Source: Desulfovibrionales bacterium (GTDB taxonomy: Bacteria; Desulfobacterota; QYQD01). From it: a DNA stretch of 45,910 bases. Numbering within the stretch: position 1 is the stretch's first letter; the number at the start of each line of letters is the position of its first letter. This document shows positions 556-6,236 of the stretch, in pieces. The stretch is from contig JAQURM010000014.1 in assembly GCA_028715605.1 (NCBI GenBank), positions 1 through 45,910 on the forward strand. The letters run 5' to 3'. The translations under genes and the position numbers were made by a program. The notes beneath the pieces were generated by a model, which worked only from the letters and a program-made list of their open reading frames with translations, was not told where the DNA came from and did not search any database.

Positions 556-675
556 CGGGACGCCCTTAAGTAATGCAATAACTCAACATCGACAGGCGGG
601 AAGAGGGGAGATGAATAAAATTCTTCTATTAAAACTTTCGTGGAAGGGATGGATTTTAAGACGATATGAACGAAA
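556..675 (+). repeat. Leader repeat, copy A (ends across the start of the AlbA-type gene)
   Basis: A segment of two blocks is repeated at 2506-2687. Block 1 starts CGGGACGCCCTTAAGTAA (556) and runs through AGAGGGGAGATGA; I count 3 differences in 59 bases. Block 2 starts TATTAAAAC and runs through ACGATATGAACGA; I count 3 differences in 47 bases. Copy A lacks about 65-70 bases that separate the blocks in copy B. The homology stops just after the downstream ATG, so both cargo genes start inside the repeat. Confidence 0.85.
625..669 (+). pseudogene. HepT-like (DUF86) N-terminal remnant, copy A
   Basis: In the frame ending with TGA at 667-669 the codons read SIKTFVEGMDFKTI and then stop. This resembles part of the N-terminal helix region of HepT/DUF86 proteins (pattern xEDILEAIxxIxxYxEGMDFExF). 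Only the last dozen codons survive in this copy. The TGA overlaps the ATG of the AlbA-type gene (ATGA), so a ribosome finishing this frame could re-initiate there. The HepT assignment is inference from a short stretch and leans on the longer copy at 2602-2681. Confidence 0.45.
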
Positions 676-2324
676 AGGAATTGCAAGATAAACTGAACGA
701 ACTCCGCAGGCTGCCCTCTGAAACAGAGGTGTTTGAATTTAAAGAGGCGAAGAATGATTTTGGCTTCGGCAAACTGGGCAAATATTTTTCGGCCTTGTCA
801 AATGAGGCAAATCTTAAGGGCAAACCATACGCATGGCTGATTTTCGGTATCAAAGACAAGGGCAGGACGATAGTCGGCAGCCGATTCCGCTCAAACCGCA
901 AAGACCTCGACAGCCTTAAAGGCGAGGTAGCCAATAAAACTACTAATCGTATCACTTTTATCGAAATCTATGAACTGCATTTGCCGGAAGGCCGGGTACT
1001 TATGTTACAAGTACCGGCGGCTCCCAAAGGAATACCCATTACATTTGACGGGCATTATTACGGGCGTGACGGAGAAGAATTGTCACCCTTGAATCTGGAG
1101 GAGATCGAACGAATCAGGGCGCAGGCAGTTACAGAAGATTGGAGCGCAGCCATTGTGCATGGCGCGACCATAGAAGACCTTGACCCGGAGGCCATTGCAA
1201 CAGCACGGGAAAACTTCAAGAATAAGTTTCCTGAGCAAGCAAAGGATGTAGATCAGTGGGACGACATCACTTCCCTGAATAAAGCCAAATTAACCATTAA
1301 AGGCAAGATTACCCGTGCAGCGATAATCCTGTTAGGGAAATCGGAATCGGAGCATTTTGTCAGTCCGGCTGAAGCAAAAATACGCTGGCTGCTTAAAGAT
1401 GCTAAAGGAAATGATAAGGACTATCACATTGAAAGCTGTCCGCTGTTGCTGGCGGTTGACAAGATATATACAAAAATCCGCAATCTGAAATACCGCTATA
1501 TCAAAGACGGCACACTTTTCCCTGATGAAGTTGACCAGTATGAACCATTTGTAATCCGCGAGGCTATAAACAATTGTATCGCACATCAGGACTACACCAA
1601 GGGAGGCCGTATTAATGTGGTCGAAATGGAAGACCAGTTGATATTTACAAATCTCGGCAGTTTTATCCCAGGCTCTGTAGAAAAAGTGGTCAAAGAAAAT
1701 GCGCCGGAAGAGCACTACCGCAACAAATTTCTTGCAACGGCCATGTTCAATTTGAAGATGGTTGACACGGCAGGCGGTGGCATAAGAAAAATGTTTAATT
1801 ACCAGCGGGAACGTTTTTTCCCAATGCCTGAATATGACTTGTCCGGCGGGAGAGTAAAGGTAACAGTAATCGGCAAGGTTTTGGATATGGACTTTGCGAG
1901 GGTATTGGCCCGAAATCCTAAACTTTCGTTAGAACAAATTATTGAATTGGACAAAGTACAGAAGAAAAAAAAGCTGACAAACGAAGAACTTAAGAACCTT
2001 AAAGACCTTGGATTGATAGAAGGGAGAAAACCCAATTATTTTATTTCCGCCAAAGTAACTGCCTCTGTTTCCAACGAGGAGCTAAAGGCCCACTACATCA
2101 AGCAGCGGGGACTGGATGATGAATACTACAAAAAATTAATTATCGAGTATTTAAATAAATTTGGAAAATCTCCCAGAAAAAATATTGAGAAGCTACTCTG
2201 GGACAAATTGCCTGATGTTTTAACTGAGGCTCAAAAGAAAAATAAGATTGGCAATTTGCTGTCAATTTTAAGAATGAATGGAACGATTCGGAACAACGGT
2301 TATTCTGACTGGTCTCTTATTTAA
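666..2324 (+). CDS. AlbA_2 (Schlafen-type) domain ATP-binding protein, RecG-like
   Basis: A 552-aa protein. Residues about 10-140 match the AlbA_2/divergent AAA_4 domain: E-F-K-E near residue 25, the glycine-bearing strand AWLIFGIKDKGRTIVG, and YYGRDGEE. Residues about 290-400 match the C-terminal HATPase_c_4 domain found in RecG-like or AlbA_2 regulators (REAINNCIAHQDY, then ADTAGGGIRKMF-like glycine motif). The last 100 residues look like winged-helix DNA-binding segments. Such proteins are common in defence islands and are annotated as putative transcriptional regulators or ATP-dependent helicase-like proteins; their biochemistry is mostly unknown. The ATG lies in the duplicated leader and overlaps the TGA of a HepT-like remnant. 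The stop codon lies in an 11-bp tandem repeat. Family call firm, function open. Confidence 0.85.
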   Translation: MNEKELQDKLNELRRLPSETEVFEFKEAKNDFGFGKLGKYFSALSNEANLKGKPYAWLIFGIKDKGRTIVGSRFRSNRKDLDSLKGEVANKTTNRITFIEIYELHLPEGRVLMLQVPAAPKGIPITFDGHYYGRDGEELSPLNLEEIERIRAQAVTEDWSAAIVHGATIEDLDPEAIATARENFKNKFPEQAKDVDQWDDITSLNKAKLTIKGKITRAAIILLGKSESEHFVSPAEAKIRWLLKDAKGNDKDYHIESCPLLLAVDKIYTKIRNLKYRYIKDGTLFPDEVDQYEPFVIREAINNCIAHQDYTKGGRINVVEMEDQLIFTNLGSFIPGSVEKVVKENAPEEHYRNKFLATAMFNLKMVDTAGGGIRKMFNYQRERFFPMPEYDLSGGRVKVTVIGKVLDMDFARVLARNPKLSLEQIIELDKVQKKKKLTNEELKNLKDLGLIEGRKPNYFISAKVTASVSNEELKAHYIKQRGLDDEYYKKLIIEYLNKFGKSPRKNIEKLLWDKLPDVLTEAQKKNKIGNLLSILRMNGTIRNNGYSDWSLI

Positions 2325-2362
2325 GAGAGTTTTAAGAGAGTTTTAAGAGAGTTTTAAGAGAG
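2320..2362 (+). repeat. Four-copy 11-bp tandem repeat overlapping the stop codon
   Basis: The unit TTTTAAGAGAG occurs four times head to tail (first copy lacks one T), identical otherwise. The TAA stop of the AlbA-type gene is in the first copy, and later copies repeat the same stop triplet in shifting frames. Slippage here would change the 3' untranslated region but not the protein. Confidence 0.95.
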
Positions 2363-2428
2363 TTTACTGAAATATTATTTAAAATCAAATAGATAAAGAC
2401 TCTTACAAAAAGGCTGAAGATATAATTT

Positions 2429-2605
2429 ATGAAACTCCACTTCGACAGCAACCAGGAATACCAGATAGAGGCCATTAGGGCCATCACGGATATATCAGGG
2501 GAAAGCGGGACGCGCTTAAGTAACGCAATAACTCAACATCGACAGGTGGGAAGAGGGGAGATGACCATAAAATTCTTTCCGGCTAAGGAGGATAATTTAA
2601 AATGA
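2429..2605 (+). pseudogene. Type III restriction subunit (Res) N-terminal remnant, copy 1, fused to leader
   Basis: An ORF of 58 codons begins MKLHFDSNQEYQIEAIRA, the N-terminus typical of type III restriction endonuclease Res subunits or related DEAD-box helicases, where it lies just before helicase motif I. After TDISGES the helicase homology ends and the frame runs through the leader repeat to TGA at 2603-2605. The first 77 bases recur at 3429-3505 with only 3 differences. No helicase motif is present, so this is debris. Its TGA overlaps the ATG at 2602 of the HepT-like remnant. Confidence 0.75.
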
Positions 2606-2687
2606 AAACCAAAAAGATATCCTGGAAGCAATGACCAGTATTGAAACGTTCGTGGAAGGGATGGATTTTAAGACGATATGAGCGATA
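2506..2687 (+). repeat. Leader repeat, copy B (ends across the start of the first nucleotidyltransferase)
   Basis: This copy corresponds to 556-675. It begins CGGGACGCGCTTAAGTAA and ends GACGATATGAGCGA, through the ATG of the nucleotidyltransferase gene. It keeps the central 65-70 bases missing from copy A, which contain an AAGGAGG Shine-Dalgarno-like site (2585-2591) and the start of the HepT-like frame. Confidence 0.85.
2602..2681 (+). pseudogene. HepT-like (DUF86) N-terminal remnant, copy B, frameshifted
   Basis: ATG at 2602 follows AAGGAGG by a normal distance. One extra A in the following A-run would give MKNQKDILEAMTSIETFVEG and then MDFKTI-stop. That matches the start of HepT/DUF86 proteins, the HEPN partner of MNT nucleotidyltransferases. 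As written, the ATG frame and the homologous frame differ by one base. The frame ends at TGA 2679-2681, overlapping the ATG of the nucleotidyltransferase (ATGA). The HEPN catalytic region (RxxxxH) is absent, so the protein is dead, but the leader and coupling may persist. Confidence 0.55.
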
Positions 2688-3187
2688 AATTAAACTTCCT
2701 TAAACTGTTTTCAACCCTGAACAATAAGAAGATTCGCTATCTCGTCGCCGGTGGAGTGGCTGTCAATCTTTATGGGATTGAGCGTGCCACAGGCGATATA
2801 GATATCGTTGTTCATCTGGAGCGACATAATCTTGAAAAGTTTGTGGAGGTCATGAAGGGGTTAGGCTTCAAGCCCAAAATTCCGGTGAAACTTGAAGATC
2901 TGTGCAGTAAGGAGATGAGGGACAAATGGGTTCGTGAAAAGGGGATGAAGGTTTTCAGCGTTTATGACCCTCAGAATCCTTATTTCCTATTGGATGTATT
3001 TGTAGAGGAGCCGTTTGACTTTGATAAGGTCTATGAAGAACGGAAAAATATCAAGGCCGGAAATGTAAGGATTCCACTTGTGCCTATAAAACGGCTTATT
3101 GAGATGAAGAAGAAAGTCGGCAGACCACAGGATATTGCCGATGTCTATTATCTTAGAAAAATAGAAAAGGAGTGGGGCGATGAATAA
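2678..3187 (+). CDS. Nucleotidyltransferase-fold protein (AbiEii/DUF6036-like)
   Basis: A 169-aa protein with a nucleotidyltransferase core: the GG motif in YLVAGGVAVNLYGIERATGD near residue 25-45 and the metal-binding D-x-D in GDIDIVV. A third acidic position is plausible in FLLDVFVEE near residue 110. The C-terminal KRLIEMKKKVGRPQDIADV is the helical tail seen in AbiEii-like or DUF6036 proteins, where K and D-x-x-D contact substrate. Family members are often toxins that modify tRNA or proteins with NTPs, but this member's substrate is unknown. The last 8 bases overlap the start of a 61-aa gene, so the two are probably translated together. The start codon lies in the duplicated leader. Confidence 0.82.
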   Translation: MSDKLNFLKLFSTLNNKKIRYLVAGGVAVNLYGIERATGDIDIVVHLERHNLEKFVEVMKGLGFKPKIPVKLEDLCSKEMRDKWVREKGMKVFSVYDPQNPYFLLDVFVEEPFDFDKVYEERKNIKAGNVRIPLVPIKRLIEMKKKVGRPQDIADVYYLRKIEKEWGDE

Positions 3188-3365
3188 AAAGCCACTGTTA
3201 TATTATAGGACGATAGAGCAGATAGAAGAGTACCGGAAACGGCCGGCTCTTCAAAAGATTAAGTGGCTTGAGACACAGATGGAGTTCTTCTATTATGCCA
3301 TGCCTGATAAGGCCAAGAAGATCAGGGAACGTATGCGCGCAGAAAAAAAGACCGCAACCCTTTAA
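3180..3365 (+). CDS. Small basic partner protein of the upstream nucleotidyltransferase
   Basis: A 61-aa protein rich in Lys/Arg, predicted helical (EQIEEYRKRPALQKIKWLE, then KAKKIRERMRAEKK). It begins at ATG 3180 inside the end of the nucleotidyltransferase gene; AAGGAG lies about 8 bases upstream. I recognise no named domain. The overlap and repeated co-occurrence pattern (see also 5198-5422) suggest an accessory or antitoxin role. That role is inference. Confidence 0.7.
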   Translation: MNKKPLLYYRTIEQIEEYRKRPALQKIKWLETQMEFFYYAMPDKAKKIRERMRAEKKTATL

Positions 3366-3428
3366 TAGATAGACTCACTCGTGGATAGCAGGAATATGTC
3401 CTCATAGAAAAAGGGTAGGGGTATTTAC

Positions 3429-3566
3429 ATGAAACTCCACTTCGAGGGCAACCAGGAATACCAGATAGAGGCCATTAGGGCCGTCACGGATATATCAGGG
3501 GAAAGGGACGGGACATTCTTGAAAATTATCACTTTTAGAACAATGGGCATTTCATGTCTGCCGTGA
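3429..3566 (+). pseudogene. Type III restriction subunit (Res) N-terminal remnant, copy 2
   Basis: The same start as at 2429: MKLHFEGNQEYQIEAIRA, then TDISGER, after which homology stops and a random tail reaches TGA at 3564-3566 (45 codons). The break comes at the same base as in copy 1 (after GGGGAAAG) and is again followed within a few bases by CGGGAC. No helicase motifs follow. This is a decayed gene start, not a functional restriction enzyme. Confidence 0.72.
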
Positions 3567-3628: not shown

Positions 3629-3654
3629 GTTGCTCAAAAACATGGAGGGGCATG

Positions 3655-3888
3655 ATGTCTGCATTGACAAAAAGGGCGACGATTTATTTGGACCCTATGT
3701 TGCACAAGGCCTTGCGTCTGAAGGCGGCGGAGACATCCCGGTCTATGTCCGAGCTGGTCAACCGTGCCGTGCGCCTTTCCCTGGCAGAGGATGCAGAAGA
3801 CCTCGCTGCCTTTGAAGAGCGGGCAGGCGAGCCGCTGGTTGCCTTCGAAGACCTGCTGAAAGACCTTAAGAAGCATGGCCGGATATAA
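3655..3888 (+). CDS. Ribbon-helix-helix antitoxin (CopG/RelB/ParD-like)
   Basis: A 77-aa antitoxin. Residues 4-45 form the DNA-binding RHH unit: beta strand KRATIYLDPMLHKALRLKA, then helices through TSRSMSELVNRAVRLSL. The acidic tail (AEDLAAFEERAGEPLVAFEDLLKDL) is the usual toxin-binding part. I prefer ATG 3655 over ATG 3652 because GGAGG (3644-3648) is 6 bases before it. The stop overlaps the toxin start by 14 bases, the usual order antitoxin-toxin. It probably represses the promoter at 3600-3628. Confidence 0.87.
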   Translation: MSALTKRATIYLDPMLHKALRLKAAETSRSMSELVNRAVRLSLAEDAEDLAAFEERAGEPLVAFEDLLKDLKKHGRI

Positions 3889-4108
3889 CATTTTTCTGCG
3901 GCATTCCGTCGCGAAAGACCTTGACGGCATTCCAAAGAAAGACCTCAGGCGCATAATTGACCGTATCCGGTCACTTGTTCATGACCCAAGGCCCTCCGGC
4001 TGCGAGAAGCTTTCCGGGCAGGAACGATACCGGATTCGGCAAGGAAGATATCGTATTGTTTACTCCATCCAGGACAATAATCTTACTATTTGGATTGTGA
4101 AAGTGTGA
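3875..4108 (+). CDS. RelE/ParE-family toxin, C-terminal tail lost to an in-frame TGA
   Basis: A 77-aa protein of the RelE/ParE fold: SVAKDLDGIPKKDLRRI, then EKLSGQERYRIRQGRYRIVY and IWIVKV. Family members end VKVGHRR-(E/D)-VYR, where the Arg and Tyr of the tail take part in mRNA cleavage in RelE. Here the frame reads VKV, TGA (4106-4108), then HRRDVYRCLG and TAG at 4139-4141. The TGA sits exactly where Gly (GGA) is expected, a single-base change. The product therefore probably lacks its catalytic tail, unless the stop is read through. Base-level checking of the frame confirms the tail is in phase. Either an inactivated toxin or an assembly error. Confidence 0.85.
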   Translation: MAGYNIFLRHSVAKDLDGIPKKDLRRIIDRIRSLVHDPRPSGCEKLSGQERYRIRQGRYRIVYSIQDNNLTIWIVKV

Positions 4109-4223
4109 CACAGACGGGATGTATATCGATGCCTGGGATAGACTTCAGGGACGTCAGTAGTAAGAGGATACTGTGGGTGATATCGCGGGGATTGATAACG
4201 AGCATAGTATCAGGAGGTTTGAT

Positions 4224-4571
4224 ATGCCGCTGCCGGTCTTGGTAAGAAACCTTGTCGACAAAAAAGTAGATGGGTTCTGCAAAAAAACGGTTCCACCCCA
4301 TGTGCTGCACCAGGTAAATCTTTCCTTCAGAATAAGGGGCAACAGTGTCACTATCTTTGAAAATCGGGCGCCGTGGCACGAAGGTATTAAGGAATGGACA
4401 TCCATGAAGATCGCGCAATTCCGGTATGATGAAAAGAGCGACAAGTGGAGGCTTTATTATCCTGACCGGAATGAAAGATGGCGGGAATATCGGGGTATGG
4501 AACCAACAAAAAATATAGACAAAATATTAGCTAAAATAGATGAGGACCCTACAGGGATTTTCTGGGGTTAG
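4224..4571 (+). CDS. DUF3024 family protein
   Basis: A 115-aa protein that matches DUF3024 along its length: NLVDKKVDGFCKKTVPPHV, RIRGNSVTIFE, the WHEGIKEWTSMKIAQFRYD segment, WRLYYPDRNERW, and the conserved end DEDPTGIFWG. Function of the family is unknown; it is often found in mobile or defence-rich regions. I start at ATG 4224 because AGGAGG (4212-4217) lies 6 bases before it; an upstream ATG at 4173 has no such site. It stands alone between the toxin-antitoxin remnant and the second nucleotidyltransferase pair. Confidence 0.8.
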   Translation: MPLPVLVRNLVDKKVDGFCKKTVPPHVLHQVNLSFRIRGNSVTIFENRAPWHEGIKEWTSMKIAQFRYDEKSDKWRLYYPDRNERWREYRGMEPTKNIDKILAKIDEDPTGIFWG

Positions 4572-4659
4572 AGAAGAATGCAAAGACGGAGAGGCGGGAC
4601 ATTCCAGTGCACGTTTTAAATAAAAATGTTGCAGGAGTTACAGAGGCTGTAAGGGGTAT

Positions 4660-5208
4660 ATGGATTTTGAAACGGTTTTAGAAAAGGTTTTGACGGCATT
4701 TGAAAAAGCCGGTATTCGCTATGCCTTGATGGGTGGGTTTGCCCTCGGTATCTGGGGCGTTCACCGCGCCACAGTGGATGTGGATTTCTTAATCGACAGG
4801 GATGACCTGGAGAAGGCCCACAGGATTATGTCTGACTTGACGTATCAACGTCTCCATCACACAGAAAACGTCTCTCAATATGCATCACCCCTAAATATCT
4901 TTGGCGAGGTGGACTTCCTTCATGCCTTCCGTTCGGCATCGCGGCGGATGCTCGAACGGTCTGAAGAGAAAAAGATATGCGGCGGAAAGCTGACTATAAG
5001 GGTCTTAATACCCGAAGATTTGGTTGGATTAAAAGTACAGGCCATGGTAAATGACAATTCAAGATGGACGAGCGATCTTGCTGATATTGAGGGAATAATG
5101 GCTTTACACAAGGCGGAGTTAGACTGGTCAATTATTGAGGAGTATTTTGCCTTGTTTGGTCTGGAGGAGATGGGACAAGAGTTAAGGAGAAGATACTGTG
5201 GCACTTGA
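4660..5208 (+). CDS. Nucleotidyltransferase-fold protein (second locus)
   Basis: A 182-aa protein with the nucleotidyltransferase GG motif in YALMGGFALGIWGVHRATVD (residues about 21-40) and D-x-D in DVDFLID. A third acidic residue is likely in GEVDFLHAF near residue 87. The C-terminal part (IPEDLVGLKVQAMVND, then DLADIEGIMA) resembles AbiEii/DUF6036-type tails. It is only distantly like the protein at 2678 and ends overlapping a 74-aa gene by 11 bases, so the two-gene architecture is repeated with different sequences. Substrate and function unknown. Confidence 0.82.
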   Translation: MDFETVLEKVLTAFEKAGIRYALMGGFALGIWGVHRATVDVDFLIDRDDLEKAHRIMSDLTYQRLHHTENVSQYASPLNIFGEVDFLHAFRSASRRMLERSEEKKICGGKLTIRVLIPEDLVGLKVQAMVNDNSRWTSDLADIEGIMALHKAELDWSIIEEYFALFGLEEMGQELRRRYCGT

Positions 5209-5422
5209 GCAAGAAGAGAGACAGGAGTTGCTAAAGCTCGCCAAGTCGTCCACGCTAAGGGAAGATATGCATCGGTTGGCTTCCAGCCGACGTAATCCCT
5301 TATTGATCGATGGCCGGGTTGACCTAGATAGGTGGTTAGCATTTCTTAACAATTACAACGAGTTTGTCAACCATACTCCTAAGCCCTTCCGCCCCATGTC
5401 AGACCGGGTTATGAAGTTATAG
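5198..5422 (+). CDS. Small partner protein of the second nucleotidyltransferase
   Basis: A 74-aa protein starting with GTG at 5198, preceded by AAGGAGA (5184-5190), inside the end of the nucleotidyltransferase gene. The N-terminal half is helical (EQEERQELLKLAKSSTLRED) and the C-terminal half has VDLDRWLAFLNNYNEFVNH. I know no named domain. It shows no clear similarity to the 61-aa partner at 3180. Translational coupling and pairing suggest an accessory or antitoxin role, by inference. Confidence 0.7.
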   Translation: MALEQEERQELLKLAKSSTLREDMHRLASSRRNPLLIDGRVDLDRWLAFLNNYNEFVNHTPKPFRPMSDRVMKL

Positions 5423-5459: not shown

Positions 5460-6236
5460 GTGATCCGATTTTGTGTACTGGCCAGTGGCAGTAAGGGAAA
5501 TTGTACGTATCTGGAATCTCAGGGGGCGCGCTTCCTGGTCGATGCGGGATTAAGCGCAACGGAAATCACGAGGCGCTTAAATGCTATCGGGGTTTCTCCG
5601 GATTCTCTGAGCGGTGTCATAGTCACCCATGAACATAATGATCATATCCGCGGGGTCGGTGTTATCTCGCGCCGTTTTGCCCTGCCCGTTTATATGACAT
5701 CTGCTACCTATCGGGCGGCGGCCAGATATCTGGGCCGTATAAAAGAGGTATGCACTGTCGAAAGCGGCCGCTCTTTCACTATCGATAGTATTACCGTTCA
5801 CCCCTTTTCTATCCCTCATGATGCCGCTGATCCGATCGGCCTTTGCGTCAGTAACGCCCGGGTTAAGCTGGGCATCTCCACGGACATGGGGATGGTTACA
5901 CACCTTGCTTCTAATGAACTAAAGGGATGCCATGCTTTGATTATGGAGGCCAATCATGACCCGGAGATGCTGGAATACGGTCCTTATCCGTGGCATCTGA
6001 AACAGAGAATAAAGGGACGATTAGGCCATTTATCAAATTATCAGACCTGCCAGTTACTGGAAGAGATACTCCATCCCGGATTGCAGCACATAGTACTGGC
6101 CCATTTGAGCCAGGTGAATAATCACCCGGAGAAGGCCTATCAAACCGTCAAAAATTTCCTTAAACAGTCTTCGGCTACCACCGGTCTTTCGCTATCCTGG
6201 CAGGATCGGATAGGGAAGTTGGTGGAGATAAGCTAA
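5460..6236 (+). CDS. MBL-fold metallo-hydrolase, YycJ/WalJ type
   Basis: A 258-aa metallo-beta-lactamase-fold protein. The metal motif HEHNDHIRG (H-x-H-x-D-H) is near residue 58, further ligands are likely in EANHDPEML and in the final LAHLSQVNNHPE. The N-terminus FCVLASGSKGNCTYLE is the hallmark of the YycJ/WalJ and related subfamily, thought to be exonucleases acting in DNA repair. It starts at GTG 5460, with a purine-rich GGAGG about 8 bases upstream. It is 11 bases upstream of nadC on the same strand and marks the return from island to core genome. Confidence 0.86.
   Translation: MIRFCVLASGSKGNCTYLESQGARFLVDAGLSATEITRRLNAIGVSPDSLSGVIVTHEHNDHIRGVGVISRRFALPVYMTSATYRAAARYLGRIKEVCTVESGRSFTIDSITVHPFSIPHDAADPIGLCVSNARVKLGISTDMGMVTHLASNELKGCHALIMEANHDPEMLEYGPYPWHLKQRIKGRLGHLSNYQTCQLLEEILHPGLQHIVLAHLSQVNNHPEKAYQTVKNFLKQSSATTGLSLSWQDRIGKLVEIS

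Follow-up and report, generated by a model that had tools for sequence, protein, structure and literature searches.

Decayed tandem units in a Desulfovibrionales genome reveal a variable slot for accessory genes between type III mod and res

How do two adjoining stretches of DNA come to have nearly the same flanks and hold unrelated genes between them? The question is raised by positions 556-3520 of contig JAQURM010000014.1 from a Desulfovibrionales bacterium (assembly GCA_028715605.1). We analysed this contig at its full length of 45,910 nucleotides (nt), which we call the window; it is the entire contig C14 of genome G000, a 25-contig genome of 2.56 Mb (G, C and L numbers are our handles for genomes, contigs and loci). 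The first of its two tandem units holds an AlbA-type ATPase gene (AlbA1), and the second a nucleotidyltransferase gene followed by a gene for a partner of 61 amino acids (aa). This is a real, well-formed relic, and it reveals that type III restriction loci have a variable slot for accessory genes. We consider it likely that both units are relics of one type III restriction-modification family, in which cargo genes lay between the stop codon of the methyltransferase gene mod and the start codon of the restriction gene res and were exchanged by recombination in these flanks.

Flanks of the two tandem units

A repeat search of the window returned three pairs, namely, 2429-2505 with 3429-3505 (77 nt, 96% identity), 556-614 with 2506-2564 (59 nt, 95%) and 627-676 with 2639-2688 (50 nt, 92%). 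These repeats are far above chance, since the best other ungapped matches in the window are much lower: 37 (plus strand) and 38 (minus strand) of 77 for the 77-nt block, 31 of 59 on either strand for the 59-nt block, and 27 (plus) and 25 (minus) of 47 for the 47-nt block. An earlier note on this DNA had described tandem units with like flanks and unlike cargo, and had placed the breakpoints at start codons. Both descriptions are borne out, as the right-side similarity of the two units begins at the res ATG, and the left-side similarity spans the cargo ATG plus a few bases beyond it (ATGAnCGAnAA). Its counts of three differences in 77 and in 59 bases hold as well, but three in 47 becomes four over 629-675, a count that depends on where the ends are set. 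One decayed locus might also have been duplicated, whether as an assembly artefact or in a recent tandem event, and have then diverged. The window is indeed a whole contig beginning in the end of an apparent transposase gene (by eye); however, the two cargoes are unrelated, each pair of flank blocks has 3-4 differences, and genome G001 of the same genus has an independent tandem with single-nucleotide differences of its own, so that we regard such a duplication as extremely improbable.

The earlier assignment of the right flank to a type III res start is correct, since the flank matches the starts of ResIII/RE_endonuc proteins. Native similarity stops at GATATAT (2495 and 3495); past this point the res genes of G124 and G172 read TTTGAAGG, whereas both window stubs read CAGGGGAAAG. 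In G004, AGGGGAAAG adjoins the dispersed word GGGATGCTCTTAAG. About 67 nt of the Res helicase-nuclease gene are left per unit and the last 6-7 codons of the mod methyltransferase gene (Table 1), so that the description of a decayed defence locus, with mod and res reduced to stubs in both units, stands. Dispersed words resembling repetitive extragenic palindromic (REP) elements lie at 556-569 and 2496-2520 (GGGACGCCCTTAAGATTCTAAGTTGACAATG); these and a second such word (GCTCGCTATGCATGTTCAA) occur at several places in the genus genomes.

The left flank has a composite origin. Searching the genome itself with 2429-2690, we found a third copy of the sequence upstream of the cargo, which the earlier note had called a leader; it lies on contig C2 as two pieces separated by about 300 nt. 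This copy is a complete two-gene module encoding a 97-aa nucleotidyltransferase (NTP_transf_2) and a 112-aa HepT-like protein, for which the MntA and HepT models are the sole NCBIfam hits, both under the curated cut-offs. The leader of the second unit (leader B) is this module minus most of its first gene and the start of its second, and the leader of the first unit (leader A) has a larger internal deletion; the MNT and HEPN genes are thus both truncated in the window and complete only on C2. The HepT-like match ends at GGATTTT, and AAGACGATATGA, which follows it, is the 3' end of type III mod; the mod genes of G172 (C10) and G124 (C66) end in ..GTGGATTTTAAGACGATATGAGCGA. The HepT-like gene and the mod end have the 8-nt word TGGATTTT in common, which is likely the point at which they were joined. 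The mod stop codon overlaps the cargo start (ATGA). The leader is thus better described as a fragment of a HepT gene joined to a mod stop codon, and a reading of it as a regulatory leader was dropped, the third copy being the upstream region of a toxin-antitoxin module. As a separate observation, small open reading frames (ORFs) of leader B at 2561-2605, 2602-2634 and 2631-2681 and the cargo start at 2678 are chained by ATGA overlaps.

Accordingly, the cargo of each unit lies directly between a mod stop and a res start, with flanks homologous to mod-res loci. The claim that nothing outside these flanks matches holds inside the window, but it fails across the genome, given the longer leader copy on C2, and fails at the genus level, where the same leader-cargo junction occurs in two other genomes. 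Looked for beyond this locus, the flanks are present with other contents in G001, G004, G172 and G124, and the exchange model thus passes the check that the earlier note had set for it, under which flanks confined to this locus would have refuted it.

A variable slot between mod and res

The res protein of G042 matches 49 of the 297 genomes of the phylum. We fetched 20 neighbourhoods, of which 17 have mod upstream of res, and excluded G155, G293 and G092, where no mod is in view. The slot between the two genes is filled by at least one gene in 13 of these 17 loci and empty in G249, G220, G207 and G209. The type III methyltransferase model is the best PADLOC hit of the mod gene, or of the piece in view, in all 17; the res genes were tested with Pfam in two loci (both ResIII + RE_endonuc) and identified in the rest by the search with the G042 protein. 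Weaker rows among the 17 are G236, whose occupant is an 86-aa ORF without a Pfam hit; G080, where masking hides part of mod and the test covered a 100-aa piece; the loci of G163 and G077, whose mod genes lack the first half (in G077 res is cut as well); and G172 (C10), G009, G118 and G124 (C66), where mod or res is in pieces or runs off the contig. The Pfam families in the slot are AAA_21, SLFN_AlbA_2 with HATPase_c_4, HATPase_c_3 with Hypoth_Ymh, DNA_methylase, Vsr, Bro-N, DUF1016_N, RhuM, Fic (Pfam-confirmed in G118) and DUF6155; the AAA_21 protein is Ppl-like by PADLOC, and a Dcm + Vsr pair is also among the occupants. Thus, genes that vary among relatives lie between restriction subunit genes in a type III counterpart of known passenger genes. 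A hint of a mod-end copy in the G133 slot (28 nt, minus strand, E 0.004) was set aside.

Both cargoes of the window have relatives in such slots. AlbA1 with its 3' flank and the res start is 83% identical over 1853 nt to G124 (C66), where the AlbA1 relative occupies the slot that follows a 650-aa mod gene, and G172 (C4) has the order mod stub, nucleotidyltransferase (89%), partner, res stub. The G124 relative also has the 11-nt repeats (TTTTAAGAGAG) found at 2320-2374 of the window, in fewer copies despite the 83% identity. Nucleotidyltransferases in the slot begin with ATGAGCGATAAA (MSDK), and the RhuM genes right after mod in G124 and G172 (C10) begin with ATGAGCGACAAA, whereas the non-slot relatives of the nucleotidyltransferase in G124 (C4), G008 and G099 start without MSDK. 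AlbA2, the cargo of a unit in G001, is 23% identical to AlbA1 over the aligned part; it begins with MSRKLN ahead of its usual start, which is no more than suggestive. A strict link of the nucleotidyltransferase to restriction loci was rejected, since its neighbours in G124 (C4), G008, G022 and G099 do not look restriction-like by eye. At L058 (2300-2700), a 3' fragment of the nucleotidyltransferase gene and the partner lie without a res stub beside an antirepressor-type, phage-like ORF (by eye).

Replacement of the cargo can be seen directly at one site. In G109, G163 and G077, which belong to one genus, the locus lies at the same chromosomal position with a different cargo in each. Compared with G163 or G077, the similarity of G109 ends 8-9 nt short of the mod end and returns at base 2 of the res start codon (10255 in G109, 7660 in G163, 9347 in G077), and the slot in between has no similarity except for a mod-end stub in G163. 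The mod and res genes of G109 are full-length. G163 and G042 are alike on the right side, but about 58 nt are kept past the mod stop. Two same-site relatives, L130 (3584-4381) and L144 (7602-8378), have a half-lost mod and different cargo, as if the slot had kept changing after mod was lost.

Cargo units are also stacked, with stubs between them. In G163, a second mod-end stub (43 nt, 91%) stands directly before the new cargo and after traces of Bro-N. The order in G124 (C66) is the 650-aa mod gene, a RhuM fragment, a DUF6155 gene, a res stub, the mod-end-like sequence ATAAATTTTAAGGCAACATGA, the AlbA1 relative and a res start cut by the contig end; on C220 of the same genome, a res stub and a mod-end-like sequence again precede an AlbA gene, the third. 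Since the mod and res flanks are homologous between loci and the cargo is not, we propose that it is the cargo that changes: a crossover in each of the flanks would replace it from start codon to start codon, and a homologous crossover on one side combined with illegitimate joining on the other would add a second cargo, with res and mod stubs in between. The arrangement in G124 is the expected leftover of such one-sided homologous joining. The cassette exchange proposed earlier is right in kind, but its mechanism would be ordinary, flank recombination being sufficient.

A dedicated mobile cassette system, integron- or transposon-like, with the repeats as its recombination sites, would likewise explain repeated flanks around unrelated genes and the REP-like words at the outer ends. 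However, the flanks derive from the coding regions of mod, HepT-like and res genes, the stub ends differ from locus to locus, and the DNA of 556-3520 has no match in plasmid or phage collections at E 1e-5 (no search for an integrase, another exchange enzyme or attC sites was made); we consider such a system very unlikely. A peptide pattern of the nucleotidyltransferase matched five viral stretches, none of which encodes a relative.

Decay and probable exchange in the genus of the window

Did the cargo change before or after mod and res were lost? Allowing up to three mismatches, we found the HEPN::mod::cargo junction five times in three of the five genomes of the genus, and it was not found in G002 and G003. 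Among named genomes, the junction pattern matched only DSAQ01000073.1, in a search from which the window's own or near genomes were possibly excluded. The junction stands before AlbA1 and before the nucleotidyltransferase in G000, before AlbA2 and before the nucleotidyltransferase in G001, and before the nucleotidyltransferase alone in G004, a state that fits loss of the first cargo by recombination between two leaders. The deletion of leader A precedes all three cargo genes. On the right, both units of G000 have the same res truncation, GATATAT|CAGGGGAAAG, so that either they descend from a common decayed ancestor locus or both flanks were exchanged. Both decayed junctions are common to the two units, and across three genomes the left one precedes three different cargo genes; it is therefore likely, though not proven, that cargo was still exchanged after decay, by way of stubs only a few dozen bases long.

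The same flanks would arise if two tandem type III loci had decayed in parallel and gene conversion between their leaders had made them alike, with no exchange of cargo after decay. G124 (C66) presents such a tandem state within a locus having the 650-aa mod gene, and leaders within one genome share bases that differ between genomes (GTGGAAGG in G000, GGTATGGAC in G001), which fits conversion. However, the HEPN::mod and res::REP-like junctions are the same in both units of G000, which needs conversion on both sides of non-homologous cargo, and the same left junction also precedes the third cargo, AlbA2, in G001. We therefore regard parallel decay as unlikely, and prefer exchange of cargo between relics of one family.

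A number of observations weigh against this preferred reading. A search for the res family in the five genus genomes found no intact ancestor of the window locus: G000 (at E <= 0.001), G003 and G004 have no match to it, and G001 and G002 weak matches only; therefore, we infer the order of decay and exchange. AlbA1 keeps its native 3' flank, as in G124, and its res stub reads GAC where the stubs of the nucleotidyltransferase (G000, G001 C12) read GAG, so that any crossover on the right must fall inside the res stub. On C2 of G001, neither cargo gene has a res stub downstream. The AlbA1 copy in G124 has one stop codon. Eight relatives of AlbA1 were viewed, one of which lies beside a type I specificity gene; of the eight relatives of AlbA2 viewed, none was seen in a type III slot, and the two that were tested (in G098 and G050) both stand between the hsdM-type and Methylase_S genes of type I loci, and therefore passengers seem to move between restriction types. 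At the site of replacement, the res gene has a stop in G163 and ends at about 99 codons in G077, and both mod genes are incomplete as noted above; the cargo there therefore differs between loci already decaying. The comparison of G163 with G077 is also less clean, since some 30 nt ahead of res and traces of Bro-N persist. Finally, the slot is frequently empty on plasmids. The res protein matches 133 plasmid records, and of the 40 listed we viewed 16 loci: mod and res lie within about 20 nt of each other or overlap in ten; three have a clear slot gene, encoding a PDDEXK nuclease (Chryseobacterium), a DUF262 protein (Rhizobium) and an RNA-binding domain protein (Sulfitobacter); and three are ambiguous, having extra methyltransferase pieces, a 56-aa ORF or a 1.7-kb gap without a listed gene. 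A filled slot therefore looks like a property of some branches.

The proposal of the earlier note that a locus was duplicated and its gene then replaced is upheld as to replacement, by the one site in another genus, but its order is just one of two possible ones, because each of the two cargo genes has its own relative in a type III slot. We propose that mod and res were lost down to stubs while AlbA1, the nucleotidyltransferase and its partner kept their open reading frames; that the mod remnant was joined upstream to the MntA-HepT-like fragment, most simply by recombination at TGGATTTT; and that at least one exchange in the window would have followed the loss of mod and res, via only tens of bases of flank.

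Other decayed loci also carry cargo. The res-start pattern, with at most three mismatches, occurs at 18 places in 14 of 395 genomes and at none in a reversed control. The matches include remnants of cargo plus stub with no mod in view in G293, G092 (RhuM + HNH_2), G140 (C33; DUF1016/YhcG) and G149 (DUF2442 ahead of a degenerate stub), as well as a res stub without evident cargo in G063. The remnant in G293 (L145, 6370-7662) is an NTP_transf_2 + HEPN pair directly before a res stub of about 150 codons.

We computed ratios of nonsynonymous to synonymous substitution rates (dN/dS) by the Nei-Gojobori method. For the nucleotidyltransferase, the ratio is 0.125 between G000 and G004, 0.089 between G000 and G001, and 0.117 between G000 and G172; for the 61-aa partner it is 0.225 in two pairs; and for AlbA1 it is 0.073 against the G124 copy, which has one stop, with no value against the G042 copy as dS is saturated. 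Since G000, G001 and G004 all have the decayed leader, the nucleotidyltransferase is constrained without adjoining mod and res genes, and is under purifying selection among decayed copies. The cargo may have been retained because it functions without the restriction system.

Features of the window and relation to known systems

The features of the two units are collected in Table 1. The nucleotidyltransferase and its partner may conceivably form a toxin-antitoxin pair, to which a weak AbiEii match alone points. To their right, more defence-like genes lie at 3652-5422, namely, an RHH_1 + ParE pair, a DUF3024 protein (PADLOC PDC-S43) and a second nucleotidyltransferase with a 74-aa neighbour. 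The content to the left of the gene at 5460 differs among G000, G001 and G004, and G003 retains the DUF3024 end and the second pair.

Table 1. Sequence features of the two tandem units in the window
Feature	Position	Strand	Basis
End of dispersed REP-like element (GGGACGCCCTTAAG)	556..569	+	Dispersed copies in own genome and genus
Leader A: upstream region of MntA-HepT-like module, internal deletion ~626/627	576..626	+	94% to G000 C2; deletion also in G001, G004
HepT-like (HEPN) gene fragment	627..657	+	627-660 88% to HepT-like gene of L002 (Pfam on that gene)
mod 3' end TGGATTTTAAGACGATATGA (..DFKTI*), stop overlaps next start, first 8 nt common with HEPN gene	650..669	+	Identical to mod ends of G172 C10, G124 C66
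Cargo 1, AlbA1: SLFN_AlbA_2 + HATPase_c_4, 552 aa	666..2324	+	Pfam; relative in G124 mod-res slot
11-nt tandem repeats over AlbA1 stop codon	2320..2374	+	Repeat search; also in G124
res 5' stub 1, native res ends at GATATAT (2489-2495)	2429..2495	+	88% over 67 nt to res starts of G124 (stub), G172
REP-like element joined to res stub 1 (CAGGGGAAAGCGGGACGCGCTTAAG)	2496..2520	+	Sequence comparison
Leader B: MntA-HepT upstream region to MNT start (ATGAAAACC)	2526..2612	+	93% to G000 C2
HepT-like gene fragment, MNT body deleted at 2612/2613	2613..2672	+	97% to full-length HepT-like gene
mod 3' end, same as 650-669	2662..2681	+	Comparison with relatives' mod ends
Cargo 2a, nucleotidyltransferase, 169 aa	2678..3187	+	AbiEii, DUF6036 similarity below Pfam cut-offs; 89% relative in G172 C4
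Cargo 2b, 61-aa partner, no family match	3180..3365	+	Follows nucleotidyltransferase in G004, G001, G172, G124 C4, G008
res 5' stub 2, truncated as stub 1 (GATATAT 3489-3495, then CAGGGGAAAG)	3429..3495	+	Comparison with relatives

Genes lying within restriction loci have been described for type I systems. Intervening ORFs are reported in type I hsd loci (rlo/mlo in Campylobacter jejuni; Miller et al. 2005, as cited in PMC5183652; see also PMC4687069), and prrC is embedded in the type IC locus EcoprrI (PMC12707154). The rlo/mlo loci likewise have unrelated accessory genes between restriction subunit genes, but they are of type I with the restriction system present, whereas the window is of type III, with stubs only and the cargo left. 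PrrC is likewise an accessory effector whose gene is embedded in a restriction locus; it is reported to act upon inhibition of its restriction enzyme, whereas the window cargo persists in a genome where no res of the same family was found. The window leader is the start of a module like MntA-HepT (type VII), with a full-length relative on C2, but the window has lost the MNT gene by deletion, and its HepT gene breaks off after about 31 codons. Among the slot genes of relatives, several correspond to known or candidate defence genes (matches to Ppl, PDC-S13 and further PADLOC models); there they are passengers of type III loci. We recognised no account of variable genes between type III mod and res in the literature, judged from titles and openings of abstracts and with subscription journals thinly covered; passengers are thus known for type I loci, and the lack of a recognised description of the type III counterpart does not show that none exists.

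More generally, we suggest tentatively, and with some doubt, that mod and res may serve as the conserved arms of a general exchange slot for defence and toxin-antitoxin genes, in which cargo may be replaced start to start, may stack and may outlive the restriction system, and in which the stubs may still be exchange sites after decay. Such a slot would give a concrete route for unrelated defence genes to swap within one operon, and short res-start and mod-end stubs around orphan genes would be the marker of exchange. A scan of genomes for such stubs would list former residents of restriction loci, probably including many defence genes, and would put to the test whether passengers need their carrier in order to work.

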